A DNA stretch of 64,000 nt, taken from Gammaproteobacteria bacterium (lineage in GTDB: Bacteria; Pseudomonadota; Gammaproteobacteria; Arenicellales; UBA868). The stretch covers positions 62,001 to 126,000 of the forward strand of contig JAKUQR010000002.1 of assembly GCA_022450155.1 (NCBI GenBank), given 5' to 3'. The position numbers and the translations under genes are program-made. The stretch's first letter is position 1. Every line of letters begins with the position of its first letter. The notes under the pieces are model-generated. The model ran no database searches, was not told the DNA's origin, and saw only the letters and a program-made list of their open reading frames with translations. Below are positions 35,662 to 51,086 of the stretch, one piece after another.

Positions 35662-35864
35662 CGTCGTATAAAAAATGTGGTTTTCCTATAACTACCGGAT
35701 TGTCCTATCACTCCGGTATCTAGCTCTTTCTGAGCAACTAAAAATCCAAAACGCAAGTGGCAACAGTAGCGTAGGGAACTGAAGACTACGTACCATATCG
35801 TAGCTAAAATATGATCAGATCAATCGGCAATTAAATTTGTTTTTTCAGTGGCGTGGAGGCTAAC

Positions 35865-36692
35865 GTGAGCGCGAGCAATTTGGTTAATCTGAAAGCCTAC
35901 CCGATCCAGGATATCGAAACACCAGCTGCCCAGGCGCTTGTCGCAAGGTGTCGACAGGACCTTGATGAAAGCGCATTGTCCAGGTTAGATGCTTTCATTC
36001 GGCCCGATGCAATTGTGGCTATGACTAATGAGATAGACAGTCTCGTGAATTGTGCTTACCGTGCAGAACATCAGCGAACACCCTACTCTTGGCGGTACAA
36101 CTTGGACTTTCCAGATGGGCATCCCCGCCGCGCCTTGCACATGAACCGCTATGGATATCTGTTGTACAACCAACTCGAAAACAAATCGCTGATCAGTCAA
36201 CTCTACGAATGGAAACCATTGACTGAATTTGTACGTCAAATCCTAAGTTTCGAAACACTATATCGTACTGCTGATCCTTATCTCTCTATAGTAATCAATA
36301 TAATGAAGAGTGGAGATGAATTAGCCTGGCATTTTGATACCAACGATGGTGTAGTTTCCTTGATGTTGCAAACGGCTGACGACGGTGGAGAATTCGAGTA
36401 CGCACCCTATATACGAAATGAACTTGACGAGAATTATGGTGGAATTAATGAATTGTTTGAGGGGCGTGCTCAAGTTGCAGATCGACCTAAAATTTATCCC
36501 GGAACCTTCGTATTATTTAAAGGCAGACGCTCTTGTCATAGAGTGACGCCGATAGGCCGAAGTAGGCAACCGCGACTGAATATCCTTTACAGCTACGATG
36601 AGCAACCCAACATGGTCTTTTCAGACGCGAGCCAACTAGAAAAAACCCAGCCCACATCAGGAGCAAATGTTGGATTGAAGGCTCCTACCTAG
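35865..36692 (+). CDS. 2-oxoglutarate/Fe(II) oxygenase
   Basis: 275 residues from the GTG at 35865, five bases after GGAGG; an upstream GTG at 35853 lies on the ribosome-binding site. Iron ligands are His156 and Asp158 (LAWHFDTNDGVV) and His225 (RRSCHRVTPI), with Arg237 in RQPRLNI for 2-oxoglutarate. SLMLQTADDGGEFEYAPYIR is close to the equivalent segment of the 18279 oxygenase. It is the first gene inside the tRNA-bounded island and runs with a TauD-like oxygenase. Substrate unknown. Confidence 0.87.
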   Translation: MSASNLVNLKAYPIQDIETPAAQALVARCRQDLDESALSRLDAFIRPDAIVAMTNEIDSLVNCAYRAEHQRTPYSWRYNLDFPDGHPRRALHMNRYGYLLYNQLENKSLISQLYEWKPLTEFVRQILSFETLYRTADPYLSIVINIMKSGDELAWHFDTNDGVVSLMLQTADDGGEFEYAPYIRNELDENYGGINELFEGRAQVADRPKIYPGTFVLFKGRRSCHRVTPIGRSRQPRLNILYSYDEQPNMVFSDASQLEKTQPTSGANVGLKAPT

Positions 36693-36843
36693 GTAGGTTC
36701 CAGATCGGGACGACTTACAGACTGCATCCGAAAGGTTAGGTTATGCGTCTACAGATACAACGAGTAAGCACTATCGCTCTAACGTTAAGAGAGTGATGCC
36801 GTTGAGTTCCTATAAAAAATAACAAAATAAGGGTATAAAACAC

Positions 36844-37902
36844 ATGACAGACATCTTCTCCACACGACGTATCCCCGATTCGTGCTTCGGCTCGATAATT
36901 GAATTCAACCAGCCCAATCTCGAACTCGCACTTAAGTCGCTTGAAACAAAACCAGACTCACTACTCTCGGCACTAATCGCAGCAAAAGGTTTGTTGGTTT
37001 TACCCAAGGTTGGGGCTATTACGGAACAGCCCGAGTTACTGCTGCGACTAAGTCGCTTGTTTGGTACAGAAGTCGAAAACTATCACCACACATTGAGTAC
37101 TCGAAATCTGGTTCACCCGACTGTGCCTCAGATTCTAGTGCTTGCCAACCAGCCGCCCAGCAACCGACAACCACCAAAGCGCCCCGAGCCAGCCTTGACT
37201 ATGAACGGCGAGTTGCCGGTACAGTTTCCACATCGAAGTGGCTGGCATACTGACCAGAGTTTTCGACGCCCACCACCTGATGTCTCACTATTCTATGCAG
37301 TCACTCCCTCACCTAAGGGCACCGGTCAAACACTCTATGCGAGTGGCACTGCTGCTTATAAAGCATTGCCCAACGACCTCAAGACACAAATAAGCAATCT
37401 GTGCGGCATACATGCTCTACCGTGGACCGGTCGATCCGAGACAGCTGTTAGAAGTGGTGATCCACCCGTCGAGTTGCTCGCGCATCAGAGACCGCAGCAC
37501 CAACCCGTGGTACGCGATCACCCGGTTACCGGCGAGCCATCATTATTCCTCTGCGAAGACGGGCAGATGGATTGGGTCGACGGACCAATCGCAGGCATGG
37601 AGCCAGGCCCGGATGGTGAAGGGGCTGCCTTACTCTATAAACTGATGAGTCATTTCACTAAACGTAGATTCGTCTACGTGCATGATTGGGATAGAGGTGA
37701 TCTGGTCATCAACGATAATCGCAACGTAATTCATTCAGCTACCTGGTTCGACACGAAATACGAGATTCGCGACATGTGGCGAACAACAGTCATGGGCAAT
37801 CCGGGCAGAGAGTACGAAGGTGAAGCACCAAGCTGGATACCCGCGCCGGGCATGGAACCAACCCAGGGTCTGGCTGACCAGACTAATGCGAGTGGAAAGT
37901 GA
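36844..37902 (+). CDS. TauD/TfdA family 2-oxoglutarate dioxygenase
   Basis: 352 residues. The iron triad is His135, Asp137 (RSGWHTDQSFRRPPP) and His297 (DNRNVIHSATWFD), followed by Arg313 (DMWRTTVMG). GTGQTLYASGTAAYKALP is the usual TauD-fold segment. Members hydroxylate substrates next to a heteroatom, often releasing sulfite, amine or aldehyde. It is 150 bases downstream of another 2OG oxygenase on the same strand; two successive oxidations of one compound are plausible but unproven. Confidence 0.9.
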   Translation: MTDIFSTRRIPDSCFGSIIEFNQPNLELALKSLETKPDSLLSALIAAKGLLVLPKVGAITEQPELLLRLSRLFGTEVENYHHTLSTRNLVHPTVPQILVLANQPPSNRQPPKRPEPALTMNGELPVQFPHRSGWHTDQSFRRPPPDVSLFYAVTPSPKGTGQTLYASGTAAYKALPNDLKTQISNLCGIHALPWTGRSETAVRSGDPPVELLAHQRPQHQPVVRDHPVTGEPSLFLCEDGQMDWVDGPIAGMEPGPDGEGAALLYKLMSHFTKRRFVYVHDWDRGDLVINDNRNVIHSATWFDTKYEIRDMWRTTVMGNPGREYEGEAPSWIPAPGMEPTQGLADQTNASGK

Positions 37903-38078: not shown

Positions 38079-39533
38079 TTATGTTAGTTCTCCCATAGGC
38101 GGGACTTTTCCATGACGTGGATCGATTGGTACCTTTTCAGCTAGGCCGCTCTCTGCTTCGAATAGTGCACCGGCGGCTAATAAGGCAGCCTCGCCTCGTG
38201 GCCGACCGATGAGTTGCAGACCGATTGGACGACCATACTGGTCAAAACCACAGGGCAGCGAAAGGGCGGGGGATGCGCTGATGGTTACCGCCGCGGTCAA
38301 AGTGGAGGCTGCCATATAGTGCTCCAGTTTGATACCGTCTATAGCCTCGGGATAACGTAGTTCGACATCAAAAGCCGGTGTGTTGGCGCCTGGAGTTACG
38401 ATTAGATCGTACTGCGAAAACAAGTCGTTAAATTGCGTATATAACGCAGCACGGGCTCGTTCTGCCTTCGCCAGAGTAGGGATAGACTGCTCTAAACCTA
38501 GTTCGGTATTCCAAATAATATCCGGCTTTATTTGATCGCGATAGCGTTCCAGTTGTAATTCTCTATCAATGACGAATTCTTGCGAACGCAAGGCCAAAAA
38601 CGTATCTTCCAGATCTTCCAAATCAATAGTAATTTCCTCTACCTTCGAACCTACGTTTTTAAAATGTCGCATGCTGTCACGACATATATTTTCAGTCTCT
38701 TGATCTACAGGTGAGCCTCCAATGGTTGCTGCAAAGGCTACCCTGTGAGGCCGCTGTGGTGCTGCCACAGCGCTACTGAACGATAAACGGGGCGCATCAA
38801 AGGTCATGGGATCCAGGTGGCAATATCCGGCCATGGTGTCCAAAAATAGTGCAACATCGGGGACATTACGTGCCATAGGCCCCTGTACCGACAAAGGCGA
38901 GAATAGTGTATCTACCGTACCTCTGGTAACCCTGCCCGGTGATGGGCGTAGGCCAACTACAGAACAATAGGTGGCCGGGCGCCTAAGGCTGCCACCATGA
39001 TCGCTTCCTTGCGCCAACCACACTTCACCTGATGCTAGCGCGGCTGCCCCTCCGCCGGTAGAACCTGCAGGGGTCAGGGATGAATTCCACGGGTTGCGAG
39101 TCTTTCCGAACACCTCGTTAAAGGTAGAGCCGCCAGCGCCAAATTCTGGCGTGTTCGATTTGCCTAGGACGATTCCTCCCATATGTTCAATCCGTTCCAC
39201 CAAAGGATGTGATCTTTCGGGGACATGATTTGCGAAAATTGGAGAACCATAGGTTGTGCGTACGCCTGCAACATCCACAAGATCCTTGATTGCAATGGGG
39301 AGACCGGCTAGCCAGCCAGCTTTGTGCTGTGCCTCACCACCAATTCCCGTCATCAGACGCTTGGCATCCGCCCGGGCGCGATCCAAGCATAGAGTAGGTA
39401 GGGCATTGATGGATGGTTCCACTTCGGCAATCCGAGCCTCAGCCGCGTCAATTAGATCCAACGGGGATAATTCCCCTGATTTCAAACGCTGGACTGCTTC
39501 ACAAGCAGTTAAACGAAAGAGATCTTCCCTCAA
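38079..39533 (-). CDS. Amidase signature family enzyme
   Basis: 484 residues. The Ser-cisSer-Lys triad is Lys83 (LPIAIKDLVDVAG), Ser158 (TPAGSTGGGAAALASG) and Ser182 (GSDHGGSLRRPA). It hydrolyses an amide to acid and ammonia. The start is a TTG at 39533. An ATG with an excellent GGGAGGA site exists ten bases upstream but is in another frame, so either the TTG is used or a small frameshift sits at the 5' end. A related but broken amidase lies at 59467. Confidence 0.88.
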   Translation of the reverse strand: MREDLFRLTACEAVQRLKSGELSPLDLIDAAEARIAEVEPSINALPTLCLDRARADAKRLMTGIGGEAQHKAGWLAGLPIAIKDLVDVAGVRTTYGSPIFANHVPERSHPLVERIEHMGGIVLGKSNTPEFGAGGSTFNEVFGKTRNPWNSSLTPAGSTGGGAAALASGEVWLAQGSDHGGSLRRPATYCSVVGLRPSPGRVTRGTVDTLFSPLSVQGPMARNVPDVALFLDTMAGYCHLDPMTFDAPRLSFSSAVAAPQRPHRVAFAATIGGSPVDQETENICRDSMRHFKNVGSKVEEITIDLEDLEDTFLALRSQEFVIDRELQLERYRDQIKPDIIWNTELGLEQSIPTLAKAERARAALYTQFNDLFSQYDLIVTPGANTPAFDVELRYPEAIDGIKLEHYMAASTLTAAVTISASPALSLPCGFDQYGRPIGLQLIGRPRGEAALLAAGALFEAESGLAEKVPIDPRHGKVPPMGELT

Positions 39534-39655: not shown

Positions 39656-40070
39656 TTAAGATGGTCTCGATCTTTCGTAAGCGATTATCTCGGGGTCGAC
39701 CGGCGTATGCGGTAATTTCCTGCAGGTATATAAGTAAGCGTCTGGTTTAAACCAACTGGCATCATCGATGATTCCCACTCTTATTCCTCGCCGTTCCGGA
39801 AAGTGGGTGTTCAACGAAAACATCTGTGATCCACACGTTGGGCAAAACTCTTTGGTCATAGTGCTGCCCCGGTCACTCTTATGCTGATAGGAATGTGTCT
39901 GACCACTGATAGTTATGGTTTCTGCCAGAACAAAAACGAACGAACCATAGAGACTGCCACTCGAGCGGCGACAATCATCACAATGACAAGAGCCTTGGAA
40001 TATAGGTTCAGCACTGCATTCAAAACTGACCGAGCCACACAAACAAATGACCGGTGATATTTAGCGTCAT
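39656..40070 (-). pseudogene. GFA (glutathione-dependent formaldehyde-activating/CENP-V) family gene with N-terminal frameshift
   Basis: From an ATG at 40070 behind AGGAGG the frame reads MTLNITGH, then would stop. Removing one T gives GHCLCGSVSFECSAEP, the normal GFA start with its CxC zinc site. As it stands, only a TTG start at 40042 yields a protein of 128 residues that lacks the first cysteine but keeps CHCDDC (GSCHCDDCRRSSG) and FCPTCGSQ. One-base insertion near 40047 is the simplest reading. Sequencing error cannot be excluded. Confidence 0.65.
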
Positions 40071-40095: not shown

Positions 40096-40875
40096 TTACG
40101 CTGTAATTCCGCCATCCACGGGAAACGCGGCGCCAGTGACGAAGGACGCCTCGTCCGACAGCAGGAACAACGCTGCGTTAGCGATTTCCTCGGGCCTGCC
40201 GGGCCGGCCCATCGGGGTCATGCCGCCCCGGGTGCGCACGAGCTCTTCCTTGTCCATGCCCTGAGTGCTCTGCTGATCTGGGCGTGCGACGAAGACCCGC
40301 AGCATTGGCGTGTCGATCGGACCTGGACAGACCGCGTTGATCCGGATGTTTTCCTGGGCATAACGCTTGGCCATGGCCTTTACGAAGCCGACGACGCCGA
40401 ACTTGGCCATGGAATAGACTGGGCTAAACATCGAGCCGGTAAGGCCCGAGGATGAGGCGGTGAACAACAGGCTACCGCCGCCGCGTGCCCGCAGCTCTGG
40501 CAAAGCCGTCTCTGTAGTGATGAACACAGTGCGCAGATTGAGATCGACTGCCTGGTCCCAGTCCTTCATGTCAAGATCCTCGACCGCCGCCGGACCAGGA
40601 TGACCAACATGGTTCCAGACGAAATCCAGTCCGTAGAAATGGTTGACAGTATTGCGGACGATCCGGCGTGAGTCTTCGTCCTTTGAAAGATCCGCGGTGA
40701 TCCCCAGCGCCTTGCCACCGGCAGCTTCGATCTCCGCGACCACCGCTGCCACCGCGTCGGCGTCAATATCCACAACGCCGACCGATGCGCCTTCCTTGGC
40801 GAAGCGAATGGCGCCGGCCCGTCCCATGCCCGACCCCGCCGCCGTAACTAACCCGATCTTGCCTTCCATTCGCAT
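40096..40875 (-). CDS. SDR family oxidoreductase
   Basis: 259 residues, classical short-chain dehydrogenase. The cofactor motif is TAAGSGMG (11-18) with Asp36 (VGVVDIDAD), suggesting NAD preference. The catalytic residues are Ser142 region (TASSSGLTG), Tyr154 and Lys158 (PVYSMAKFG). NHVG replaces the usual NNAG at 88-91. Ends with FVTGAAFPVDGGITA. Preceded by GGGAGAACGTC. Substrate unknown; in the island it could oxidise an alcohol made by the oxygenases. Confidence 0.92.
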   Translation of the reverse strand: MRMEGKIGLVTAAGSGMGRAGAIRFAKEGASVGVVDIDADAVAAVVAEIEAAGGKALGITADLSKDEDSRRIVRNTVNHFYGLDFVWNHVGHPGPAAVEDLDMKDWDQAVDLNLRTVFITTETALPELRARGGGSLLFTASSSGLTGSMFSPVYSMAKFGVVGFVKAMAKRYAQENIRINAVCPGPIDTPMLRVFVARPDQQSTQGMDKEELVRTRGGMTPMGRPGRPEEIANAALFLLSDEASFVTGAAFPVDGGITA

Positions 40876-41236
40876 GACGTTCTCCCAATTAAGTTTGTTG
40901 ATTTTGTTAGTTAGCCCGCTAACCGGTCAACGCACATCCGAAAAAGGCTAATTTACAGCGCATTCTTACATCCAAACCCACCGCGCAGGGTTATTGTATT
41001 ACCGCCCCCACGCACGCTTTTCAGACACCGAAATCCACCTTTGTACGTCCTATATTAGAGTTCTCTTATTCCCAACAGATCAGTGATGGCACTCAGGTTT
41101 GGTGTTTTCGAGTGTTGGATAATCGCCACATAACGTGTCCCATACCATTCTCTGGGGAAACCCAACGCGTCCTGCCCACTCTCAGCGATAATCCTTTGTC
41201 GGGACAACCATCCGGACTTAGTCCCCCCCATTTTTG
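40876..41236. other. Intergenic region upstream of the transporter gene
   Basis: Divergent spacer between the SDR and the ABC binding protein. No gene recognised. I looked for a guanidine (ykkC) riboswitch because of the ureohydrolase downstream and did not see the conserved core. Confidence 0.5.
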
Positions 41237-41266
41237 TTGACAAACAACGAGAAACACTTGAATAAT
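41237..41266 (+). promoter_or_regulatory. Probable sigma-70 promoter of the ABC binding protein gene
   Basis: TTGACA at 41237-41242 and AATAAT at 41261-41266 with an 18-base spacer, about 100 bases before the ATG at 41371. The -35 is a consensus match and the -10 differs at one position. Confidence 0.5.
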
Positions 41267-41370
41267 CTGACCACTAGGTAGAATTAATAGAGCCAATTTT
41301 CAATTGGCTTAAATGAAGATTTGTACTGAATTCGTCGAATTAAAAGCTAACGTTTACAAGGAGGATATTC

Positions 41371-42546
41371 ATGGCTATAACTAATTCTCGCTCCAATAAG
41401 TTTTTGTCCAGTTTGGGGGTGGCCGCCGTACTACTGCTCACACAGCTTTTGTTCACTACCAACACTGCCCTTGCAAAGGAGAAAGTCACTATAGCGATTA
41501 TTTCGTTTTCTCCATATGCGCCCTGGTACATTGTCAAAGAAAAGGATTTGGCAAAGAATATTGAGATCGACGTTCAGATCATCGACGACATCTCAGCAAA
41601 GAATGCGGGGTTAACCACAGGCTCTCTTCAATGCATGTTGAATACACTTGACACCGTAGTCGTGGCACGATCAGCTGGTCTTCCAATTAAACATATTGCC
41701 ATACCCGCGATGTCCTATGGTCTTGACGAGATGGTTGTGACAAAAGAAATTTCCAGCATAGATGACTTTCCAGGAAAAACTTTTGGTGCCGACTACGGGT
41801 TCCTCAATCATATGTGGATGCTCCTGAATCTAAAAAGAGCGGGGATTGGATTTGACGAGTTGACTCACTCAATTATGATGCCCTGGGACAGTGCGGCTGC
41901 ATTCGTTAGCGGCGGGTTAGATATCGACGTTAACTACATTCCTTTTTCAAAGCAGTCCCTGGAACTGCCCGGATCTCATGTACTGAAAACCAGTCTGTCG
42001 GACCGTACATGGGAAAGAGGGCTGATATCTGAGTCTATGGCATGCAATGAAGATTGGCTGGCGTCAAAGCCTGAGGTTGCTAAAGAGGTGCTTAGAGCCT
42101 GGTTTGAAGCCGTCAACTGGTGGAAAGCAAACCCAGAGGAAGGAAATGCGATCATAGCCAAAGCTCTTGACTGGCCAATTTCCGATGTGCAGCTGACCCA
42201 GTATGGCGCAGTCATGTTAAATCTTGATCAGAATCTCGGTGCCTTTGGTATTGGTGCTGGAAAACCTGTATGTGCTAGTCTTCCTGATGGCGCTGAAGTT
42301 CGCGAAATCCCCGCTGACTCGAGCGGCTGGGGTCAGGAATTATTTGGAGGTGCACCCGACTGTGTAGCGGGCTACGTCTACCCAACTTGGGATGTGTTCG
42401 GCAATATTTATAAAGAAGCTGGCGTAATAGATACCGCGGCTTCGACTGATATTGGAATCGACACCAGCATCCTTAAGGCACTTGATAGTGCGGGTTATAC
42501 AGACACCTATAGTTCCAATCAATGGATTGGTCGCCTGGGCGAATAA
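41371..42546 (+). CDS. ABC transporter substrate-binding protein, NitT/TauT type
   Basis: 391 residues after an AAGGAGG site. A signal peptide (VAAVLLLTQLLFTTNTALA-KE, cleavage near residue 35) gives a periplasmic protein. The fold is SsuA/TauA-like: PWYIVKEKDLAKNIEIDVQI, the TTGSLQCMLNTLDTVVVA segment, AWFEAVNWWKANPEEGNAII and DWPISDVQLTQYG. Such proteins bind sulfonates, nitrate, pyrimidine precursors or guanidinium-like cations. The matching permease and ATPase are 5.7 kb away at 48282-49978, with a hydroxylase cluster in between. Confidence 0.9.
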   Translation: MAITNSRSNKFLSSLGVAAVLLLTQLLFTTNTALAKEKVTIAIISFSPYAPWYIVKEKDLAKNIEIDVQIIDDISAKNAGLTTGSLQCMLNTLDTVVVARSAGLPIKHIAIPAMSYGLDEMVVTKEISSIDDFPGKTFGADYGFLNHMWMLLNLKRAGIGFDELTHSIMMPWDSAAAFVSGGLDIDVNYIPFSKQSLELPGSHVLKTSLSDRTWERGLISESMACNEDWLASKPEVAKEVLRAWFEAVNWWKANPEEGNAIIAKALDWPISDVQLTQYGAVMLNLDQNLGAFGIGAGKPVCASLPDGAEVREIPADSSGWGQELFGGAPDCVAGYVYPTWDVFGNIYKEAGVIDTAASTDIGIDTSILKALDSAGYTDTYSSNQWIGRLGE

Positions 42547-42573
42547 CACTCGTATCTGATTATTTGTTGTTTC

Positions 42574-42622
42574 AGACAGCAGGCTCCGGAGAATTACGCT
42601 CCGGAGTCCCTGCTGTCTTTTA
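42574..42622 (+). terminator. Rho-independent terminator after the binding-protein gene
   Basis: AGACAGCAGGCTCCGGAG pairs with CTCCGGAGTCCCTGCTGTCT around a short AATTACG loop, followed by TTTTA. The long stem lies 28 bases after the stop at 42546. It may reduce expression of the ureohydrolase downstream relative to the binding protein. Confidence 0.8.
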
Positions 42623-42752
42623 CAGCGGTTACTATGGAGTGTAGCGATTTCAACAATCGCTGAACTTTTCCTTCAGGAAATATTTGATCAAGTCTGAAAA
42701 ATTAGCCAAAAAGATTTGTTAAGGCAATTTACCTATTAAACGGGAGTTGATT

Positions 42753-43940
42753 GTGTCAAATTCAAGTAAGGATGAATTTCGTGGTACAAGAAATCTCAGG
42801 CATTTGCAGCGAATTTCTCAGACAAAACAGGAAGAAGAGATTCAGCGCAATCTTGAACTTGGACTGGAAGCTGCTGAGTCAATTAATGATCGGAGTATCT
42901 CACTGTTTAGCCGCGGTCATCAGCCGGCGTTTGCAGGCATTAACACGTTTATGAAGGAACCCTACTGCGAAGACATCCGGCAAGTTGGGAACTTTGAGGC
43001 AGCATTTGTAGGAATACCATTTGACACAGGAACCACCTATCGACCCGGGACACGATTTGGCCCCCAGGCGGTGAGACGAATTTCAGCAGTCTACGATGGT
43101 TATTCCGTCGATGGGGGCATTGACCTGCCCGAAGAGCTTGATCTTTGTGATGCGGGAGACGTTTTTGTGATCCCTGGCAATATCGAAAAAACCTTCGACC
43201 AAGTTAGCAAAGCTGTATCCCATGTCTATACCTCTGGGGCTTTTCCTATACTCTGCGGCGGCGATCACAGTCTTGGTTATCCAAATGTTAGGGGGATTGC
43301 ACCTCACATAGACGGTAACGTCGGCATCATACATATCGACCGGCATATAGATATGCAGGACATGGATATGGATGAACGGATGCATACGACGCCGTGGTTT
43401 TGGACAACGAATCATCATGAAAGTGTGGACCTTAGCTCATCTCATCATAACCACAGTCATATGCACGACGTTGGGCTTTCGAACTGTCCGCCAAAAAATC
43501 TAGTCCAGATGGGCATTGGAGGGTGGTATGGGTCCCGACCCGGTTCCAAGGTCGCTCATGAACGAGGCAGCAGCGTCCTGACGATGACCGATATAGAGCA
43601 GCTCGGCGCCAAAGGGGCTGCAGAAAGAGCTCTCGAGATCGCCTGGAAGAATGCAAAAGCTGTCTACCTGTCATTCGACATTGATTCCATAGACCCCGGC
43701 TTTGCACCCGGTACTGGTACACCGGAACCCGGTGGCCTGTATCCCCGAGAAGCATTGGAAATGGTACGACTGATCGCGCGTGAGGGCCTTTGTGGTATGG
43801 AAGTCGTTGAGGTCTCACCACCCTATGACGTAAATGACAACACTGCCCAACTTGCTTGCCGATTGATTCTCGATGTCCTCGGGACTATGGTCGTTGAGGG
43901 AAAACTGGGTCACCGAGACCGTGCGATGAAAGACCGTTGA
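42753..43940 (+). CDS. Ureohydrolase family enzyme, guanidine-hydrolase/agmatinase-like, with histidine-rich loop
   Basis: 395 residues from the GTG at 42753, six bases after GGGAG. The binuclear metal site is complete: His172 (CGGDHSLG), Asp196, His198 and Asp200 (HIDRHIDMQ), Asp309 and Asp311 (SFDIDSIDPGFAPG). The ~80-residue N-terminal extension, the DMDMDERMHTTPWF segment and the length fit the long branch that includes nickel-dependent guanidine hydrolase rather than the ~310-residue agmatinase. Residues 221-238 hold seven histidines (HH at 221-222, then HHNHSHMH), an unusual insertion that could bind or deliver metal. It lies beside a NitT/TauT binding protein. Product would be urea plus an amine or ammonia. 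Confidence 0.85.
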   Translation: MSNSSKDEFRGTRNLRHLQRISQTKQEEEIQRNLELGLEAAESINDRSISLFSRGHQPAFAGINTFMKEPYCEDIRQVGNFEAAFVGIPFDTGTTYRPGTRFGPQAVRRISAVYDGYSVDGGIDLPEELDLCDAGDVFVIPGNIEKTFDQVSKAVSHVYTSGAFPILCGGDHSLGYPNVRGIAPHIDGNVGIIHIDRHIDMQDMDMDERMHTTPWFWTTNHHESVDLSSSHHNHSHMHDVGLSNCPPKNLVQMGIGGWYGSRPGSKVAHERGSSVLTMTDIEQLGAKGAAERALEIAWKNAKAVYLSFDIDSIDPGFAPGTGTPEPGGLYPREALEMVRLIAREGLCGMEVVEVSPPYDVNDNTAQLACRLILDVLGTMVVEGKLGHRDRAMKDR

Positions 43941-44013
43941 TGGAGACGTGCCGATGACAACCTTCATTTCCCTTCGGTCGAGCGCCGACGAAATGCGACT
44001 CTTATCTGGAGTA

Positions 44014-46389
44014 TCAGGAATCTTTGTGTAAGGCCGTAATAATATTTTCCGGTGTCATAGGCATATCGACCCACATGCCGATGGCGTTATAAACCGCTTG
44101 TGCAATCGCAGGACCTGCTGCTGCTGCCGGCGCTTCACCAGCGCCGCGCGCACCAAACGGCCCAACGGGATCATAAGAATCGCCGTAAATGACTTCTCCA
44201 TTCACCGGAAAATCCGCAGCACGGAGTAACTTGTAATCCAACAGATTGGCATTTTTGATCCGCCCAGTTTCTTCATCGAATACAAGACTTTCATAGATGG
44301 CAAAGCCTGCACCACAAATGGCGCCACCGATCATCTGATTTTTCATGACCTGAGGATTCATAATAGTCCCACTGTCTTGAGTGGCTAACCAGTCCAGTAG
44401 TTTGATCTCTCCGGTTTCTATATCGACTTCGAGATCGACAAAGTGGGCAGCAAAATGTCTCGCAAATGCACTGGATGGAGGCATCGGATATGTGGGTCTG
44501 CCAGTGATCGAGGAAGCCTGACCGAGCGCGTCTGCACTGCGAAAATGATTCAGAACGTCCTCGATCGAAATTTGTGGATCTTTCTTGTTGTTGTCCTTAA
44601 AAAGGATCATCCCATCTTTAACATCCAGTTCGCCGGGGTCGGAGCCAAAAAATTCACGAGCAGCAATTTCCAATAATTGCCTTTTTGCGTCCTTGCTCGC
44701 AGCCTGCGTTGCCCAACCAACTCTAAACATGGTGTTGCTAGCAAGCGATCCGTGACTCCATGGACATGAATCCGTGTCTCCAGTTTCGATCTCCACTTTA
44801 TCAAAAGGAATTCCTAACTCTTCGGCGGCAACCTGCGCTTGTGTGGTCTCGCTACCTTGACCTTGCCGGCCAACTGCACAATAGACTTTTGCACTGCCGT
44901 CAGGGTTGATCCGGACGACTGCAGATACATTGCCCTCGAACTCAACACCACAAACGTGGGCGCCAGTTCCAACACCAACTGCGCGTCGCTTTGGTCCCTC
45001 TATGGAATATGGTTTCCCCCAACCATGCCATCTCCCCTCCCAGTTAAACGCTTGGGCGCCTTTGATTAGGATATCTTCTGTCGATCCACTCGAGAGATGA
45101 AACAGTTTTGGCCAGTCTTTTCTTTGCTCTTCCGGGATGCCGTCAAGATATTCGTCGATACTGCCTTTCAAATATCCTCTACTATGTTGCATCCTAAGCT
45201 CTTCCCCAGGCTTTATTTGGTTCTTGAGGCGAAACTCAACGGGATCCATATTTACCTGTATCGCACACATGTCAGCAAGGCGTTCGACACATGAACCTAG
45301 AGTAACGTCGCCAACGGCCCTCATACAACCAGCTGTAAGAAGGTTTGTATTGACACCGTGTATGGCGTAGTGCCCATGGTGCGCCCGGCCCCAGTTATCA
45401 ACACAAAAGAATCCAACATCATCTTTGAAGCCGTATCCGCCGTTATCGATAATATGGTCGAAATCGGCTAAGGTGAGAGTGCCATCTTTTTTGCATCCCA
45501 TGCGACCTCGAGAAATTTCCAAATGCCGCCGTTTGACAGTCGCCATGCACTCTTCATTGGTTAATTCGATCTTGACAGGTTTGCGTACTTTCTTCGCGAG
45601 CAGCACCGTAATCATCATGAAGTTCGCACTCCACCAGTTACCAAAAGAACTACCTGAGGGAAGTGCGTAAACACGAATCTTGCTCAACGGGATACCGAAC
45701 GCTTCGTGGATTCCGTCTCGCAACTCAGAAGGAGTCTGTGAGGCTGTCCACATCGTGACCCGATCGTCGTTCCATTCGGCAATACACGCGTTTCGTCCTA
45801 GGGGCGCCATTTGTTGACTGGCAAACTTGATCTCACAGTTGAGCACAAAATCCGCTTCTTGTTCACCTTTGGCCACATCACCCCACTCGACGATATAAGG
45901 ATCACGAACATTTCCCTCTTCTCGTATTTGAGGGGCATCCGGTTTCATCGCCTCTTCGGGATCAAATACGGAAGGTAATATTTCGTATTCAACTTCAATG
46001 AGTCCAAGTGCAGTTTCTGCTATCTCTTCGCTGGTTGCCGCTACAGCAGCCATGTCATCACCGAAAAAGCGTACGATTCCGTCTAACACTTTTCCGCGGT
46101 AGTTAAACCACGCGTTCTCCCAGTTTAGGTTGGGGGCATCGTTGTGGGTAACAACGCCAAGCACGCCTGGTAGCGCCTCGGCCTTACTGGTATTGATGTG
46201 TGTGATCCGGGCGTGTGCATGGGGACTTCTGAGTATCTTGCCGTGCACCATACCTTGCACTTTCACATCCACTGCAAACTTTAGTGTTCCAGTCACCTTC
46301 TCCCTGGCATCTTTGACTGGAACGCCTTTCCCAGCAATGGTAAAACTAGACGGATCTTTATAGCCAGTCTGTAGGGTTAAATTCTTCAC
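44014..46389 (-). CDS. Xanthine dehydrogenase family, molybdopterin-binding large subunit
   Basis: 791 residues. Two halves are visible: aldehyde-oxidase a/b hammerhead domain (PVKDAREKVTGTLKFAVDV, LRSPHAHARI) and the Mo-binding domains (GRQGQGSETTQAQVAAEELG, PVGPFGARGAGEAPAAAAGPA). The catalytic glutamate is Glu752 in the G-A-G-E-A-P loop. It hydroxylates an N-heterocycle, purine or aldehyde at the Mo centre. It is last in the order FAD, FeS, Mo subunits, transcribed from 47777. Residues that define xanthine specificity cannot be assigned with confidence. Confidence 0.93.
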   Translation of the reverse strand: MKNLTLQTGYKDPSSFTIAGKGVPVKDAREKVTGTLKFAVDVKVQGMVHGKILRSPHAHARITHINTSKAEALPGVLGVVTHNDAPNLNWENAWFNYRGKVLDGIVRFFGDDMAAVAATSEEIAETALGLIEVEYEILPSVFDPEEAMKPDAPQIREEGNVRDPYIVEWGDVAKGEQEADFVLNCEIKFASQQMAPLGRNACIAEWNDDRVTMWTASQTPSELRDGIHEAFGIPLSKIRVYALPSGSSFGNWWSANFMMITVLLAKKVRKPVKIELTNEECMATVKRRHLEISRGRMGCKKDGTLTLADFDHIIDNGGYGFKDDVGFFCVDNWGRAHHGHYAIHGVNTNLLTAGCMRAVGDVTLGSCVERLADMCAIQVNMDPVEFRLKNQIKPGEELRMQHSRGYLKGSIDEYLDGIPEEQRKDWPKLFHLSSGSTEDILIKGAQAFNWEGRWHGWGKPYSIEGPKRRAVGVGTGAHVCGVEFEGNVSAVVRINPDGSAKVYCAVGRQGQGSETTQAQVAAEELGIPFDKVEIETGDTDSCPWSHGSLASNTMFRVGWATQAASKDAKRQLLEIAAREFFGSDPGELDVKDGMILFKDNNKKDPQISIEDVLNHFRSADALGQASSITGRPTYPMPPSSAFARHFAAHFVDLEVDIETGEIKLLDWLATQDSGTIMNPQVMKNQMIGGAICGAGFAIYESLVFDEETGRIKNANLLDYKLLRAADFPVNGEVIYGDSYDPVGPFGARGAGEAPAAAAGPAIAQAVYNAIGMWVDMPMTPENIITALHKDS

Positions 46390-46422
46390 GCTCCTGCCTC
46401 TTTATGAAATAGAGCGAAGTGG

Positions 46423-46899
46423 TTAATTCGCACGTTTTTGCTCTCTCAATTTTTTCGCGGCGCTAACTACAGACTTCACGATATAAGGATATGCGCCACA
46501 TCGGCATATGTTACCGCTGATACCTATTGCTGCTTCCTCTTCAGTTGGATCTGGATTTTCATCCAGGAATGCTTTTGTTGCCATAATAAACCCTGGCGTG
46601 CAAAACGCACATTGGAATCCTTGCTCCTCGATATAAGCCTGTTGTATGGGGTGTAAATTATCAACCGTACCTAATCCTTCGATTGTAAGAACTTCTTTTC
46701 CCTCGGCCTGCATACCCAACACAAGACAAGCGGTTACTGGTTTACCGTCCATAATTACGGTGCATGATCCGCACTCGCCTTCATTGCAGGATACACGTAC
46801 CCCATACAGATCCAATTGATCCCTTAACACGTCAGCAAGACTTTCGTGTGGCTTTATCTCAACCTCGAATACTCCGCCGTTTACAGTAAGTGTGGTCAT
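46423..46899 (-). CDS. Xanthine dehydrogenase family, [2Fe-2S] small subunit
   Basis: 158 residues. The plant-type ferredoxin cluster ligands are Cys38, Cys43, Cys46 and Cys58 (SCNEGECGSCTVIMDG). The second helical-domain cluster uses Cys97, Cys100, Cys132 and Cys134 (QCAFCTPGF, NICRCGAYPYI). Electrons pass from the Mo site through these clusters to FAD. It overlaps the FAD subunit stop by four bases and is 33 bases from the large subunit, so one operon makes the trimeric enzyme. Confidence 0.95.
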   Translation of the reverse strand: MTTLTVNGGVFEVEIKPHESLADVLRDQLDLYGVRVSCNEGECGSCTVIMDGKPVTACLVLGMQAEGKEVLTIEGLGTVDNLHPIQQAYIEEQGFQCAFCTPGFIMATKAFLDENPDPTEEEAAIGISGNICRCGAYPYIVKSVVSAAKKLREQKRAN

Positions 46900-47777
46900 A
46901 GCTGTTTCCGACTCAACTTCTTGAGCGACTCTTCGACAGCGCGACGCGTCAATACATTACACATATCTCTACGGTACTCTTTGCCTGCACGAACATCAGA
47001 GATTGGCGAAGCATCAGAGGCGGCCAACTGCCCCACCTCTTCTAGTAGGTCGTCATTGATGTCTGAAAGTATAGAGCCGATCAACTTTTGTTCGGCAACT
47101 CTCGATCGGATCGGCGTGGGAGCAACAGACCCGAGAGATATTCTAGCATCCGCGACCACCCCATTATTAGAAGAAATTGATACCGCAGAACTTATCAAAG
47201 CGATGTCGACAAAAGTCCGTGCTACCCGCTTATAACAAGCCTCCTTTGGGTACTCCGGGACAGGCACTTTGATCTCGATTAGCAACTCCTCATCGTTCAG
47301 GATTGTTTCGTTTACGCCCTGGAAGAAATGTTCCATTAACACTGTACGACTTCCGCCGCTACCCATGATAGTCACCTCGGAGTCGAGCGCCACGAACAAT
47401 GGTGACAAATCGGCACCGGGAGAAGCATTACACATATTTCCACCAACGGTGCTGATGGTCCGGGTTTGTTTGGTACACATTAGGCGCGCTGTATACCCGA
47501 TCACCTCCATTAATTGGTTCATCTTTGCAGCATGATCGAGATCATCCAGAGAAGCCATCGCTCCGATTCGCACACCATCTTGTTCGTTTTCTATATAGTT
47601 AAATTTCGGCACATAAGTCAGATCTATGCAGTAGTCGATATCGACTTCCCCGGCACGCCATTGCAGCATTAAATCTGTACCACCAGCCCAATACTTAGCT
47701 CGGTTTTTGTGTTGCGCTTTAAGCGCTATGGCTTCTTCGAAAGTACTGGGTCTTAGGTACTCAAAGGGTTTTTTCAT
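46896..47777 (-). CDS. Xanthine dehydrogenase family, FAD-binding medium subunit
   Basis: 293 residues. CoxM/XdhB-type PCMH-FAD features are FEYLRPSTFEEAIALK, WAGGTDLMLQWR (FAD loop), RTISTVGGNMCNASPGADLSP and the C-terminal CO-dehydrogenase-flavoprotein domain (YKRVARTFVDIALISSA). First gene of the three-subunit operon, divergent from the permease at 48282. No maturation genes follow; xdhC and mocA at the left end of the window could serve it. Confidence 0.94.
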   Translation of the reverse strand: MKKPFEYLRPSTFEEAIALKAQHKNRAKYWAGGTDLMLQWRAGEVDIDYCIDLTYVPKFNYIENEQDGVRIGAMASLDDLDHAAKMNQLMEVIGYTARLMCTKQTRTISTVGGNMCNASPGADLSPLFVALDSEVTIMGSGGSRTVLMEHFFQGVNETILNDEELLIEIKVPVPEYPKEACYKRVARTFVDIALISSAVSISSNNGVVADARISLGSVAPTPIRSRVAEQKLIGSILSDINDDLLEEVGQLAASDASPISDVRAGKEYRRDMCNVLTRRAVEESLKKLSRKQL

Positions 47778-48281
47778 CGTTTGATCCAGTAAAACGGTTA
47801 AACGATTTGAAGTTGAACATTACTAGTGAATCGTGGTGGAATTTTGTCTAGATTCTATTGTAGCAGTCTATTTATTGTTGGTGAATTGATGACTCTAGTT
47901 GAACGTCGCCACCATTTTATGCTCCAGTAGCCTGGACAGGTGGGCGAGAACTGCTACGAACAACCACTTCAAGACATTGGAACCCCAATAATGTCACTTT
48001 TATTGGTACCCAGTGTAGTAGCCATCGTGTGCAGAGTGCGCAGAACACGGATCGCTCGATTCCTCTTAATCGTCGATCAACGGTTCGCGTAACATCCGAT
48101 TGGTGAGACTACGTCTTCTTAGGGTTAGGCGATAAATCAGCCACCAGTGGTACAGGTGTTAGCGAGTGTAATTGACGTGTCTTGTCGGGTAAACACCAAC
48201 AAATCCTAGTTAACATTTCTTGCTCACATCAAATTAATTTGATATACCGTTGCTTGATCGTGACCAGATCGGGAGGGCTGG
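47778..48281. other. Divergent intergenic region, 504 bp
   Basis: Lies between the hydroxylase operon and the ABC permease and must hold both promoters. I see no gene, strong hairpin or clear operator. Confidence 0.5.
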
Positions 48282-49151
48282 ATGCCTAATAGCGAAGAAA
48301 AGATCGATAAGCAAAACGATCTTACCAATTTAACTGGAACCCTACGCCAGCGGAAAAGTTCATTTTTTGAACTGCGCGGGAATGTATCCCGCCGAGCTAC
48401 TTTGGTACTCGGAATTTTGGGCGGTTTAGCCTTTTTTGGGATCTGGGAATTGGGCCATTTCCTTACCGCCGACGCGAGCAAGCGTTTCTTGCCATCCCCC
48501 CAAAAGGTAGTGTCCACGTTCTGGTATTTGTTGACGGAAAAGGGATACATCTACGATATTGTCAAGAGTTGTTATCGAATATACGGTAGCTTTTTTCTGG
48601 TCTGCGTCGTGGCGGTACCGCTAGGAATTTTGATGGGATGTTTTGCCAAGTTTCGCGCGTTGATCAATCCTACGATATCCGCTTCTCGATATCTCCCCGC
48701 GGCATCATTTATCCCGTTACTGCTCGTTTGGTTTGGTCCAACTGATACGCAGAAAATGGCCTTATTGTTTTTAGGGGTTATCTTCTTTCTTATTGCGTTG
48801 ATACTGGACAATACCAAGGCCGTCCAGATTGAATTGGTGGAGGCGGCATTGACAATGGGCGCTGGTCGTCGTCGGGTTGTTTTAGGTGTTGTCGTGCCTG
48901 CGGTTGCACCAGCGATCATAGATTCCATGCGAAACATGATCGCCGTTGGATGGACTTATTTAGTAATAGCGGAAATCGTAGCGGCGACTGACGGTATTGG
49001 CGCGGTCATGATGCGTGCGGGCAGATTTCTAAAAGTAGATATCATTATGGCTGGCATTCTCACCATTGGTATTCTTGGAGTACTGACAGACTTGGCCTTC
49101 AGATTGCTTGCGCACTACGCGTTCCCATGGAATCGTGAACGTCGGAGTTAA
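48282..49151 (+). CDS. ABC transporter permease, NitT/TauT type
   Basis: 289 residues after GGGAGG. Six membrane segments in the SsuC/TauC arrangement, with the EAA loop as ELVEAALTMGAGRRRVVLGV followed by PAVAPAIIDSMRN. The conserved AEIVAATDGIGAVMMRAGRF segment is typical. It forms an inner-membrane importer with the ATPase 14 bases downstream, and very probably with the binding protein at 41371, since no other permease is present. Confidence 0.92.
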   Translation: MPNSEEKIDKQNDLTNLTGTLRQRKSSFFELRGNVSRRATLVLGILGGLAFFGIWELGHFLTADASKRFLPSPQKVVSTFWYLLTEKGYIYDIVKSCYRIYGSFFLVCVVAVPLGILMGCFAKFRALINPTISASRYLPAASFIPLLLVWFGPTDTQKMALLFLGVIFFLIALILDNTKAVQIELVEAALTMGAGRRRVVLGVVVPAVAPAIIDSMRNMIAVGWTYLVIAEIVAATDGIGAVMMRAGRFLKVDIIMAGILTIGILGVLTDLAFRLLAHYAFPWNRERRS

Positions 49152-49165
49152 CAAACGTTTTCACC

Positions 49166-49978
49166 ATGCCTAATATGGTTCACAATCACCAAATTGATGA
49201 CAACGCCAATGCGGTCGTAATCCGTGTAAGTAATGTAACCCAACAGTATCTAAGCGGAAGTTTTACAGCTGTTGACAACATTTCACTAGAACTACGAAAA
49301 AACGAAATAGTGACTTTTATTGGACCATCGGGCTGTGGAAAAACGACGGTACTTCGAATGATTGCTGGGCTCGAATACCCAACTCAAGGAGAACTCTTTG
49401 CCTACGAGCAACCAATAGTTGGACCAGGACCAGATCGAGGAATGATATTTCAAGCCTATACGTCATTCCCATGGTTAACTACACGCCAGAACATCGAATA
49501 TGGCATGAAAATAATGGGCGTAACGAGAGATGACAGACAGACCAGGACACAAGAATTTCTTGAGCTAGTACATCTTGAGAAATTTGCGGAGTCATACCCC
49601 GCTAGTCTGTCTGGTGGCATGAAGCAACGTGTTGCCATCGCTAGAACGCTGGCACAAAACCCCCAAGTTCTCCTTATGGACGAACCGTTTGGCGCACTTG
49701 ACGCCCAGGTGCGTTGGGAAATGCAAGAAATGATGATTGACATTATCGGCCGGGAAAAAACAACGGTGATAACAGTCACTCACGATATTCAGGAGGCCAT
49801 TTTCCTTGCTGATCGAATAATTTTCTTCACACGTAATCCGGGTCGGATCAAAGCAGATATTCCAGTGGCTTTCAAGGGGGGAAAACGAATTCCCAGGAAA
49901 GAAGATATGTTGGCTCTGCCAGGTTATGTTGATCTGGAGATGCAATTATTTGCGATGATGCGAGAGGAAATACAGTAA
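49166..49978 (+). CDS. ABC transporter ATP-binding protein, NitT/TauT type
   Basis: 270 residues. Walker A GPSGCGKTT (53-61), signature LSGGM (148-152), Walker B LLMDEPFGALDA (169-180) and the switch histidine in ITVTHDIQEAIFLADRI. The pattern FTAVDNISLEL and FPWLTTRQNIEYG matches SsuB/TauB. Coupled to the permease. No strong ribosome-binding site precedes the ATG, so translation may depend on the permease. Confidence 0.93.
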   Translation: MPNMVHNHQIDDNANAVVIRVSNVTQQYLSGSFTAVDNISLELRKNEIVTFIGPSGCGKTTVLRMIAGLEYPTQGELFAYEQPIVGPGPDRGMIFQAYTSFPWLTTRQNIEYGMKIMGVTRDDRQTRTQEFLELVHLEKFAESYPASLSGGMKQRVAIARTLAQNPQVLLMDEPFGALDAQVRWEMQEMMIDIIGREKTTVITVTHDIQEAIFLADRIIFFTRNPGRIKADIPVAFKGGKRIPRKEDMLALPGYVDLEMQLFAMMREEIQ

Positions 49979-51086
49979 ATGACGTAAACGAGCCTGGGTT
50001 CGTTCAACCACGGAAAGTGCCGACCTTACCTACGTTGGAATTCGAGGACATGCTTAGATTGATGACACTTGCTGCAGTCTAAGTGACAATAGTTTAAAAG
50101 ATAAATGTCGGATTTAGGATGATGTGAATTCTGTGACCAGACTTGCAATCGTCTCAGCTATTCAGTCCAACCACGTAATTCAATTGTTTGCCAATCAGTT
50201 TGAGTCTTTCTGGGGCTACTTTCTCCGCGTTCAGAGTGACGTAACTCCTGGCAATCAAACAAAGAATACGACGTAAGCCACAGCGAGCAGAATCTGCACC
50301 CCAGACTGCTTGGTAGCAGGGATTTCTGGGTCTACCGGGCGATGCTCTAGACAATTCATTTTTTTCTACCAATCGAATCTCGTCATAGTGGGAAACAAAC
50401 TGGCCTTCCTGGCCGACTTATGAAGTCTTGTTAGGTGGAGTTAACCACCAGGGCCGGACACGAATTTGTCCGCAAAGGAGCGATCGTAGTCACCACTTCT
50501 CAATGCGCGCAATCGCTCTTTCCAGCTCTCCAAGAAATGTGATTTGTTGCCTTTGGCTTCCAGGCGCTTGATGCGGAACTCCAGCGCCCCATGGAGTCGT
50601 CAATTGGCTTTTGCATGGATGGCGCTTTCCTCGGCAAATGGTAACCAACAAGCTAGACAATTGTTTGAAGCAATGAGGCGCTCTATGAGCACGAGCGATA
50701 TTAATCGAGCATTACCCGTCTAGCGTCAAATCAGAAAGTTGTACGGGCAATGAATTTTGTCCTTACCCCTTACCCAAAGACGATTTCCGTTTAGTACCCT
50801 GTATCCAACTATTCTGCAAAATTTCCGAGCCACTCCCCACTACTAGAGACACTCCCCCTCGTTTTAAGGGGGTGGGGGTGCCGCATCCATCACGAGTGCT
50901 ATCCGTGAACAAACAAAGACAATCAACAAGGTTATTAAGCATCTTCATGGAATTCCACACAGTACTGTTCGAATTGAAGAAAGACTGCCGCGCTCTTAAC
51001 GCTTCTAGATAGGCGCGGCTATACTGTGCTGGCACCGAGTCCAAAACTGAATGCTCAATGCACTCACAATGAAATAGGGAGAAAGC
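49979..51086. other. 1.1-kb region with gene debris
   Basis: No intact gene. A 72-codon minus-strand frame (50372-50154, GRPRNPCYQAVWGADSARCG) is not recognised and may be chance. A better candidate remnant is listed at 50441. A G/C-rich palindrome near 50862-50878 has no T-tract. Confidence 0.45.
50441..50595 (-). pseudogene. C-terminal gene fragment, unknown family
   Basis: The minus frame ending with TAA at 50443-50441 reads ALEFRIKRLEAKGNKSHFLE and SWKERLRALRSGDYDRSFAD, a normal-looking soluble protein tail without a start; a stop lies just upstream of the readable part. Amphipathic and charged, unlike chance translation. Family not recognised. Confidence 0.4.

Follow-up and report, generated by a model that had tools for sequence, protein, structure and literature searches.

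A candidate catabolic module for guanidine-bearing nitrogen heterocycles in a gammaproteobacterial genome

Research on guanidine metabolism is recent, and a review still calls the natural source of guanidine a major gap; the same review, where it treats Synechocystis, describes an ABC importer linked to the guanidinase GdmH (PMC12186494). In the part of PMC11410670 devoted to this enzyme, guanidine specificity depends on Thr97 and Trp305. Both GdmH and the metformin/dimethylguanidine hydrolases MefH/DmgH are activated by HypA/HypB with nickel, as stated in PMC11399263. Here, we describe a locus at positions 41371-49978 of a 64,000-nucleotide stretch (hereafter the window) of contig JAKUQR010000002.1, from a gammaproteobacterial genome of 3.2 Mb that is 95.5% complete in 77 contigs. 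The locus encodes a GdmH-like ureohydrolase, a NitT/TauT-type ABC importer and a three-subunit molybdenum (Mo) hydroxylase. With moderate confidence, we interpret it as a gene set dedicated to the catabolism of a nitrogen heterocycle that bears a guanidine group, acting by import, Mo-dependent oxidation, ring opening and urea release.

The strongest argument comes from other genomes. Beside related Mo trios, the guanidino-cleaving enzymes come from three unrelated families: ureohydrolases, agmatine-deiminase/carbamoylase (AguA/AguB) and creatinase. The presumed ring openers likewise come from three families (PuuE-like, creatininase and Amidohydro_2). Because the enzymes in these roles swap among families, a shared intermediate carrying a guanidino group is suggested. 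The link between guanidino cleavage and the Mo trio is well supported by comparative genomics; we infer the substrate, the reaction order, the metal and the import.

Gene content and recurrence of the locus

Open reading frames and Pfam matches place the binding protein, ureohydrolase, Mo trio, permease and ATPase at the positions and in the families given by a first-pass annotation of this DNA. The features are listed below.

41371-42546, + strand: P0001, periplasmic substrate-binding protein (SBP) of NitT/TauT type (PF09084 NMT1, 47 bits; signal-like N terminus)
42747-43940, + strand: P0002, ureohydrolase of a GdmH-like subfamily with an altered specificity residue (PF00491, 257 bits)
43413-43475, + strand: His-rich insertion in P0002, 21 residues (223-243), shared by 9/9 P0002-type proteins
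43719-43721, + strand: Thr325 codon of P0002, aligned with GdmH Trp305 (alignments)
44014-46389, - strand: P0003, large molybdopterin-binding (Mo) subunit of a xanthine-oxidase-family hydroxylase (PF02738/PF20256/PF01315; distinct subfamily in FastTree)
45790-45798, - strand: Gly198-Arg199-Asn200 signature of P0003, at the position of the substrate-pocket Glu elsewhere in the family
46423-46899, - strand: P0004, 2Fe-2S subunit (PF01799, PF00111)
46896-47777, - strand: P0005, FAD-binding subunit (PF00941, PF03450; 4-bp overlap with the 2Fe-2S gene)
47778-48281, no strand: divergent intergenic region of 504 bp between the Mo trio and the permease/ATPase genes (sequence reading, Rfam scan)
48282-49151, + strand: P0006, ABC permease (PF00528)
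49166-49978, + strand: P0007, ABC ATPase (PF00005)

The seven genes fall into three runs. The SBP and ureohydrolase genes are on the + strand, those of the Mo trio on the - strand, and the permease and ATPase genes again on the + strand. Given the two strands and the 504-bp divergent gap, the module is not a single operon. Rfam gave no match up to E=1 across window positions 40800-50100, divergent gap included.

Genome contigs were scanned for relatives of the Mo subunit. With P0003 as lone query no relative was found; the scan with alignment A1 succeeded and returned 379 stretches encoding a relative, of which the best 80 were kept as loci. Among these best 80 of 379, 26 (L030-L055) show 57-83% identity, L061 41% and the others 29-33%. 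The 26 scan loci, the window and three further loci (L021-L023) make a subfamily set of 30 sequences, 28 of them distinct (L021 equals L035 and L023 equals L041).

The window set recurs in L030-L032, where a P0002-type ureohydrolase gene, an SBP gene and an ATPase gene accompany a permease gene divergent from the FAD-FeS-Mo genes. The Mo subunits are 82-83% and the ureohydrolases 85-86% identical to those of the window (793, 796 and 465 bits for the ureohydrolases of L030, L031 and L032, the last cut by the contig end). These loci have one extra gene, of the Amidohydro_2 family, between ureohydrolase and SBP. L032 is labelled Alphaproteobacteria, and L030 and L031 just 'bacterium'. Thus, the five- to six-gene neighbourhood is conserved beyond the source genome, as expected for the import-plus-degradation module that the first-pass annotation had proposed, and the grouping goes beyond chance because the set recurs in other genomes. 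Individual components give a similar picture. Relatives of P0001, 55-69% identical, adjoin a ureohydrolase gene or a Mo trio in other genomes; P0004 is 68-69% identical to the 2Fe-2S subunits of L021-L023, P0006 70-71% to the permeases of L022 and L030-L032, and P0007 77-79% to the ATPases of L030-L032.

More distant loci keep the theme with other partners. L042, L051 (Ruegeria sp. EL01) and L052 contain genes for a ureohydrolase, a short-chain dehydrogenase/reductase (SDR), a PuuE-like deacetylase, a LysR regulator, permease, ATPase, SBP and the FAD, FeS and Mo subunits. L039 has much of this set, and L037 has ureohydrolase, LysR and Mo trio. In L038 (labelled Thermoleophilia), a ureohydrolase gene, two SDR genes, a PucR-type regulator gene, Mo genes and a PuuE-like gene are found. 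In L050 (labelled Desulfobacterales), Mo, PuuE-like, AguA-like and AguB genes are consecutive. Upstream of the Mo trio, L045 carries creatinase, creatininase and LysR genes, and so does L044, its creatinase gene being cut by the contig end. The L045 creatinase matches PDB 7yto with 812 bits. Both creatininases pass TIGR04448 (cut-off 235) with 369 bits for L045 and 374 for L044, and that of L045 matches PDB 1q3k with 383 bits. The AguB proteins of L050 and L054 are above the NCBIfam cut-off (442 and 448 versus 410 bits).

Altogether, 17 of the 28 distinct loci (16 without L055) have a guanidino-cleaving gene next to the Mo trio. Ureohydrolases are of P0002 type in the window and L030-L032, agmatinase-like in L037, L039, L042, L051 and L052, of an actinobacterial type in L038 and L040, and of a divergent arginase-family type in L048 and L055; the four full-length types are mutually only 22-33% identical. 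The remaining cleavers are AguA-like and/or AguB proteins (L048, L050, L054) and creatinase (L044, L045). Ring-opener candidates occur in 15/28 distinct loci (L021, L022, L030-L032, L038, L042, L044, L045, L048-L052, L055), a ring opener together with a guanidino cleaver in 12/28, and SBP orthologs in 11/28. The ring-opening role of the PuuE-like and Amidohydro_2 proteins is a presumed one.

As controls, the same scan supplied 54 loci of other xanthine dehydrogenase (XDH)-family Mo subunits; flanks were similar and the threshold was E<=1e-6. Among the 26 scan loci of the subfamily, 12 have a ureohydrolase, 11 a PuuE-like protein (two of these, in L030 and L031, being weak matches of 130 bits) and 9 a NitT-type SBP. 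None of the 54 controls has any of the three, nor AguA, creatinase or creatininase. Fisher tests give p values of about 2e-7 (ureohydrolase), 7e-7 (PuuE-like) and 1e-5 (SBP); these values are too small, given the shared ancestry of the loci and the choice of subfamily loci as source of the seeds. Weak control matches were to the permease (64 bits), AguB (76, in L061), Amidohydro_2 (44) and, twice, the L045 LysR protein (34-39). We therefore regard it as very improbable that three independent transcription units without a common pathway lie side by side by chance. Such an arrangement would suit the three runs on two strands, as well as the separation of SBP plus ureohydrolase from importer plus Mo genes in genome G704, but the set recurs in distant groups and is absent from all 54 controls.

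A separate observation concerns L039, on a contig labelled Rhodobacteraceae bacterium, in which positions 21822-21921 match Rfam PYLIS_3 (pyrrolysine insertion element, mttB).

A distinct subfamily of Mo hydroxylases

The subfamily that contains the Mo enzyme is sharply delimited, with its own clade and a private pocket signature. In a FastTree phylogeny of 98 Mo subunits, the 30 subfamily sequences are monophyletic with local support 1.0, and L061 is their sister. Gly198-Arg199-Asn200 is present in 30/30. At the first of these positions, the 68 other Mo subunits have Glu (64), Gly (3) or Asp (1). Trp252-Trp253 is likewise found in 30/30 and in L061, while the first position is Lys in 62 of the 68 others. 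Arg199, Lys286 and Arg287 are invariant across the subfamily. The catalytic Glu752 of the GxGE motif is kept in all 28 sequences long enough to include it, and P0003 has both PF02738 and PF20256. We take Gly198 to stand at the position of bovine Glu802, the substrate-binding Glu of xanthine dehydrogenase, and Arg288 at that of bovine Arg880.

None of the specificities compared fits P0003. As a purine xanthine dehydrogenase it is rejected by its NCBIfam scores (XdhA 428.6 versus a cut-off of 780 bits, pucD 328 versus 784), by Gly in place of the substrate-binding Glu in 30/30 and by the tree. As an aerobic CO dehydrogenase it is rejected by a CoxL score of 259.6 versus 991 bits. A PaoC-type or nicotine (NdhC) enzyme is rejected since both references fall outside the support-1.0 clade and the PaoC score is far below cut-off. 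The cut-off for 4-hydroxybenzoyl-CoA reductase is missed by far too. Membership of a CO dehydrogenase or aldehyde group, which the first-pass annotation had named as an outcome that would count against its idea, was thus not found. The same annotation had suggested a phylogeny against purine, nicotinate and isoquinoline enzymes; our references were purine, nicotine (NdhC) and PaoC enzymes, against which the subfamily forms its own clade.

These data bear on catabolism of a purine, pterin or 2-aminopyrimidine, in which a fused or six-membered 2-amino ring would be oxidised and its opening would leave a guanidino group. XdhA models are the top NCBIfam matches of P0003, even though far below cut-off; L038 has its PucR-type regulator, SDR genes occur in L038, L039, L042 and L051-L053, and the related L136 cluster has a RidA-type gene. 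The 429 bits reached against 780 and the replacement of the purine-binding Glu in 30/30 nevertheless speak against it, and the creatininase and creatinase neighbours suit imidazolones better. We consider this route unlikely.

The subfamily was also sought on mobile elements. In 72,556 plasmid records, tblastn found no relative of P0003 at E<=1e-100; at E 1e-20, 701 records match, all at less than 60% identity, and the best 60 of the 701 reach 35.5%. No relative was found in viral contigs. Two plasmid loci, L164 (Sinorhizobium meliloti pSymB) and L165 (Ponticoccus alexandrii plasmid), combine an XDH-family trio, 34-36% identical to P0003, with amidohydrolases and UbiD/UbiX, probably as a further ring-degradation cluster. 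In four genomes with the same record prefix, the Mo subfamily is represented twice, by paralogs about 82% and about 63% identical to the window protein (L030/L045, L031/L043, L032/L046, L033/L044).

A ureohydrolase related to guanidinases

The solved structures closest to P0002 are the guanidinases 7esr/7oi1 and 9fek (E about 1e-132). The metal-ligand motifs GGDHS, DRHID and FDIDSID are present, and the equivalent of Thr97 is kept (GTTYRPG). Apart from L030-L032, five relatives are 83-87% identical. The P0002-type proteins differ from GdmH at the position of Trp305, which is Thr325 in P0002 and Thr or Ser in 9/9. All nine also share a His-rich stretch of 21-23 inserted residues with HMHD[VI]G at its end; it is missing in 6/7 Trp-type GdmH loci, and the seventh, L026, gave no result. 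At least one guanidine-I riboswitch is found in each of the 7/7 Trp-type loci (L024-L029, L135). None is found in any of the nine P0002-type loci, among which L032 starts inside the gene and L133 has just 211 bases before the SBP gene, so that little or no upstream DNA was covered in these two. The structure predicted for P0002 has a mean confidence (pLDDT) of 60.5, with residues 204-242 below 50.

A simpler account would make P0002 an ordinary GdmH guanidinase that, with its ABC importer, uses free guanidine, the Mo hydroxylase being an unrelated insertion. The nearest characterised guanidinases, the kept Thr97 and the occurrence of a P0002-type gene with importer genes and no Mo trio in L130 agree with it. 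The loss of Trp305, the His-rich loop and the missing riboswitch make free guanidine an unlikely substrate of the window ureohydrolase, judging by sequence. Moreover, the Mo trio recurs beside P0002-type genes in L030-L032 and beside other guanidino cleavers elsewhere. We give this account little credence.

P0002 probably depends on nickel and acts on a substituted guanidine. In L133, a HypB gene (408 versus a cut-off of 385 bits) lies two genes downstream of the P0002 ortholog. NicO-like transporter genes adjoin the orthologs in L130, where the match is below the Pfam cut-off, and in L131, where it is by likeness. By eye, no HypA/HypB was recognised among window open reading frames of at least 125 residues at 36-56.5 kb, the part of the genome covered. 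Such linkage is not decisive for a guanidinase, because comammox guanidinase loci likewise lack these chaperones, as far as the account of these loci in PMC11410670 extends.

Several related clusters were observed. Genes for HypB, an alpha/beta ureohydrolase pair and a PuuE-like protein occur in L133 (G712:C5, 3690-17271), where they follow the P0002 ortholog, and in L136 (G686:C40, 5493-18000), which has HypA in addition. Both lack the Mo enzyme and contain a RidA-type protein and diiron monooxygenase subunits, presumably toluene-monooxygenase-like, near NitT-type ABC genes. PF02332 and RidA were confirmed in L136. A diiron monooxygenase may replace the Mo hydroxylase in these clusters. L134 (G704:C45, 6576-15583) has two tandem ureohydrolase pairs separated by a HypB-like gene; its sequence also shows a possible nickel transporter nearby. 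In L030 (2757-2828) and L031 (3038-3109), a tRNA gene, possibly an integration site, precedes the P0002-type gene and ends 14 bases ahead of the first codon at which that gene could start.

Proposed pathway and relation to known systems

In the proposed pathway, the conserved linkage suggests that the ABC importer would take up a cyclic guanidine. By analogy with the chemistry of its family, the Mo-FeS-FAD hydroxylase would then oxygenate a ring carbon adjoining nitrogen to give a cyclic amide (lactam). An amidohydrolase would open the ring to a guanidino acid; elsewhere, this enzyme would be the cluster-encoded PuuE-like, creatininase or Amidohydro_2 protein, and in the source genome it would be encoded outside the window. 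Lastly, the GdmH-like, probably nickel-dependent ureohydrolase would free urea from the guanidino compound. The first-pass annotation had envisaged hydroxylation together with splitting of a guanidino or ureido group. The partner swaps among ureohydrolases, AguA/AguB-type proteins and creatinase retain the guanidino option and leave the ureido one aside. The SBP gives little guide to the ligand: its profile has three weak PDB matches, to sulfonate/taurine binders, and its predicted structure (pLDDT 41) is too poor for use.

The substrate class that we prefer, still unproven, is that of 2-aminoimidazole-type rings, converted to 2-amino-imidazol-4-ones of glycocyamidine/creatinine type. The preference comes from the branch of the Mo subfamily that adjoins creatininase and creatinase: with both present, a Mo enzyme would have nothing to do except make the imidazolone. 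A natural precedent exists, since dispacamide A corresponds to oroidin with its 2-aminoimidazole oxidised to glycocyamidine among marine natural products, as stated in the part of PMC2810223 on these compounds. Tentatively, and with less confidence than in the module itself, we propose that the GRN-pocket Mo subfamily oxidises 2-aminoimidazole-class cyclic guanidines, while ring opener and cleaver are repeatedly swapped for non-homologous enzymes. If true, organic nitrogen would be recycled along a hitherto unknown route across Proteobacteria, Actinomycetota and Desulfobacterales, to go by record titles.

Several observations weigh against the module or the preferred substrate. A guanidino-cleaving gene is missing from 11/28 loci (L021-L023, L033, L034, L036, L043, L046, L047, L049, L053). 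Five of these contigs (L033, L034, L047, L049, L053) are shorter than 7 kb, but L021, L022, L023 and L043 extend over about 20 kb. L055 owes its place in the count solely to an arginase-family protein whose usual metal motifs are missing, as in that of L048; both proteins (L048:6438-7586, L055:12363-13445), encoded directly downstream of the Mo subunit, have GQNSP for GGDHS, and that of L055 has no PDB match at E<=1e-20. The AguA-like proteins are under the agmatine-deiminase cut-off (344 and 350 versus 382 bits). P0002 occurs with the importer and without the Mo trio in L130 (G688, a genome with no match to the Mo subfamily), and with the SBP and without the trio in L132 and L133, so that the ureohydrolase can do without the Mo enzyme. 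Conversely, Mo units are without a linked ureohydrolase in L021 and L022, and genomes G714 (same order as the source) and G704 have Mo, PuuE-like and importer genes with the ureohydrolase not linked. In G704, ureohydrolase and Mo units lie at separate places, each with a paralogous SBP (69% and 58% identical to P0001), hence two related substrates are possible. To our knowledge, Mo hydroxylases do not typically act at a site such as C4 of 2-aminoimidazole.

The source genome adds further difficulties. No ring-opening hydrolase is found in the window module, and the close PuuE-like family is not found in the genome, where the best relative has 34% identity. A weak candidate is an Amidohydro_2 homolog on contig C11 (54% identical). 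It has equals (52-54%) without a linked module in G659 (same genus), G680 and G687, and may therefore be a general gene. Matches to urease are partial and reach 30 and 28 bits (Pfam cut-off 23), far below the 155-188 bits in G680, G687, G712 and G714. Neither creatininase nor creatinase is found among ten window proteins submitted to Pfam, the part of the genome searched. The adjacent amidase and SDR genes, which the first-pass annotation had thought might complete the pathway, are not conserved with the module. The amidase (38079-39533) lies beside it in the window alone, according to tables of open reading frames that undercount frames masked by longer antisense ones, and the SDR (40096-40875) scores 116 bits to the SDR recurring in L039, L042, L051 and L052. 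Also upstream, we note a HalD-like protein (PF23169, 37 bits) with a TauD-family dioxygenase at 35853-37902, and a GFA-family (formaldehyde-activating type) protein adjoining the SDR at 39656-40042.

An acyclic substrate has to be weighed as well. The Mo enzyme would be an aldehyde or iminium oxidase acting on 4-guanidinobutanal, or its cyclic aminal, derived from agmatine or arginine, and the resulting guanidinobutyrate or its lactam would be cleaved by the hydrolases. The ureohydrolases of L051 and L038, which exceed the agmatinase cut-off TIGR01230 of 174 bits (187 and 193), favour such an agmatine-type route; that of L037 (172) and P0002 (165.7 versus 174.3) narrowly miss it. AguB exceeds its cut-off in L050 and L054, the guanidinobutyrate lactam could be opened by PuuE-like enzymes, and the invariant Arg199, Lys286 and Arg287 are basic. 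On the other hand, no amine oxidase or decarboxylase was seen recurring among the clustered genes, in which no search was aimed at them, the creatininase and creatinase of L044 and L045 point to imidazolone chemistry, and the clade stands apart from PaoC. We judge the acyclic route improbable.

The kinds of enzyme in the cyclic-guanidine module that we favour are already known. Among the papers listed by the literature searches, most subscription papers being outside their reach, none deals with the gene combination, the Mo subfamily or the retuned guanidinase. General family models label the genes agmatinase-like or xanthine-dehydrogenase-like and so hide the pathway. The module offers a concrete, testable enzyme set for guanidino compounds beyond free guanidine, recurring in several bacterial groups. 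It also marks out a Mo clade whose pocket is unlike that of every reference compared, and P0002 illustrates a possible retuning of a GdmH-type guanidinase.

Compared with the GdmH systems of Synechocystis and Nitrospira inopinata, P0002 shares the ureohydrolase family, the metal ligands and the Thr97 equivalent. A linked importer is shared with Synechocystis, and nickel-related genes lie beside some P0002 relatives. In contrast, P0002-type proteins have Thr/Ser for Trp305, the His-rich insertion and no guanidine-I riboswitch, and in the window and L030-L032 the ureohydrolase is linked to a Mo hydroxylase. MefH/DmgH, nickel-dependent ureohydrolases acting on substituted guanidines (PMC11399263), resemble what is proposed for P0002; they are alpha/beta heteromers encoded by tandem genes, whereas the window has a single ureohydrolase gene. 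With xanthine dehydrogenase and 4-hydroxybenzoyl-CoA reductase, the window enzyme shares the three-subunit Mo/2Fe-2S/FAD architecture and the catalytic Glu752, but P0003 has Gly-Arg-Asn for the pocket Glu and a loop ending in WW for GGGFGxK. We know of no Mo hydroxylase in the creatinine pathway, and creatininase and creatinase are not in the window module. The proposed chemistry is nonetheless like that of creatinine breakdown, with a 2-amino-imidazolone ring opened and amidino cleavage then giving urea, and both of its genes stand beside the Mo trio at L044 and L045.

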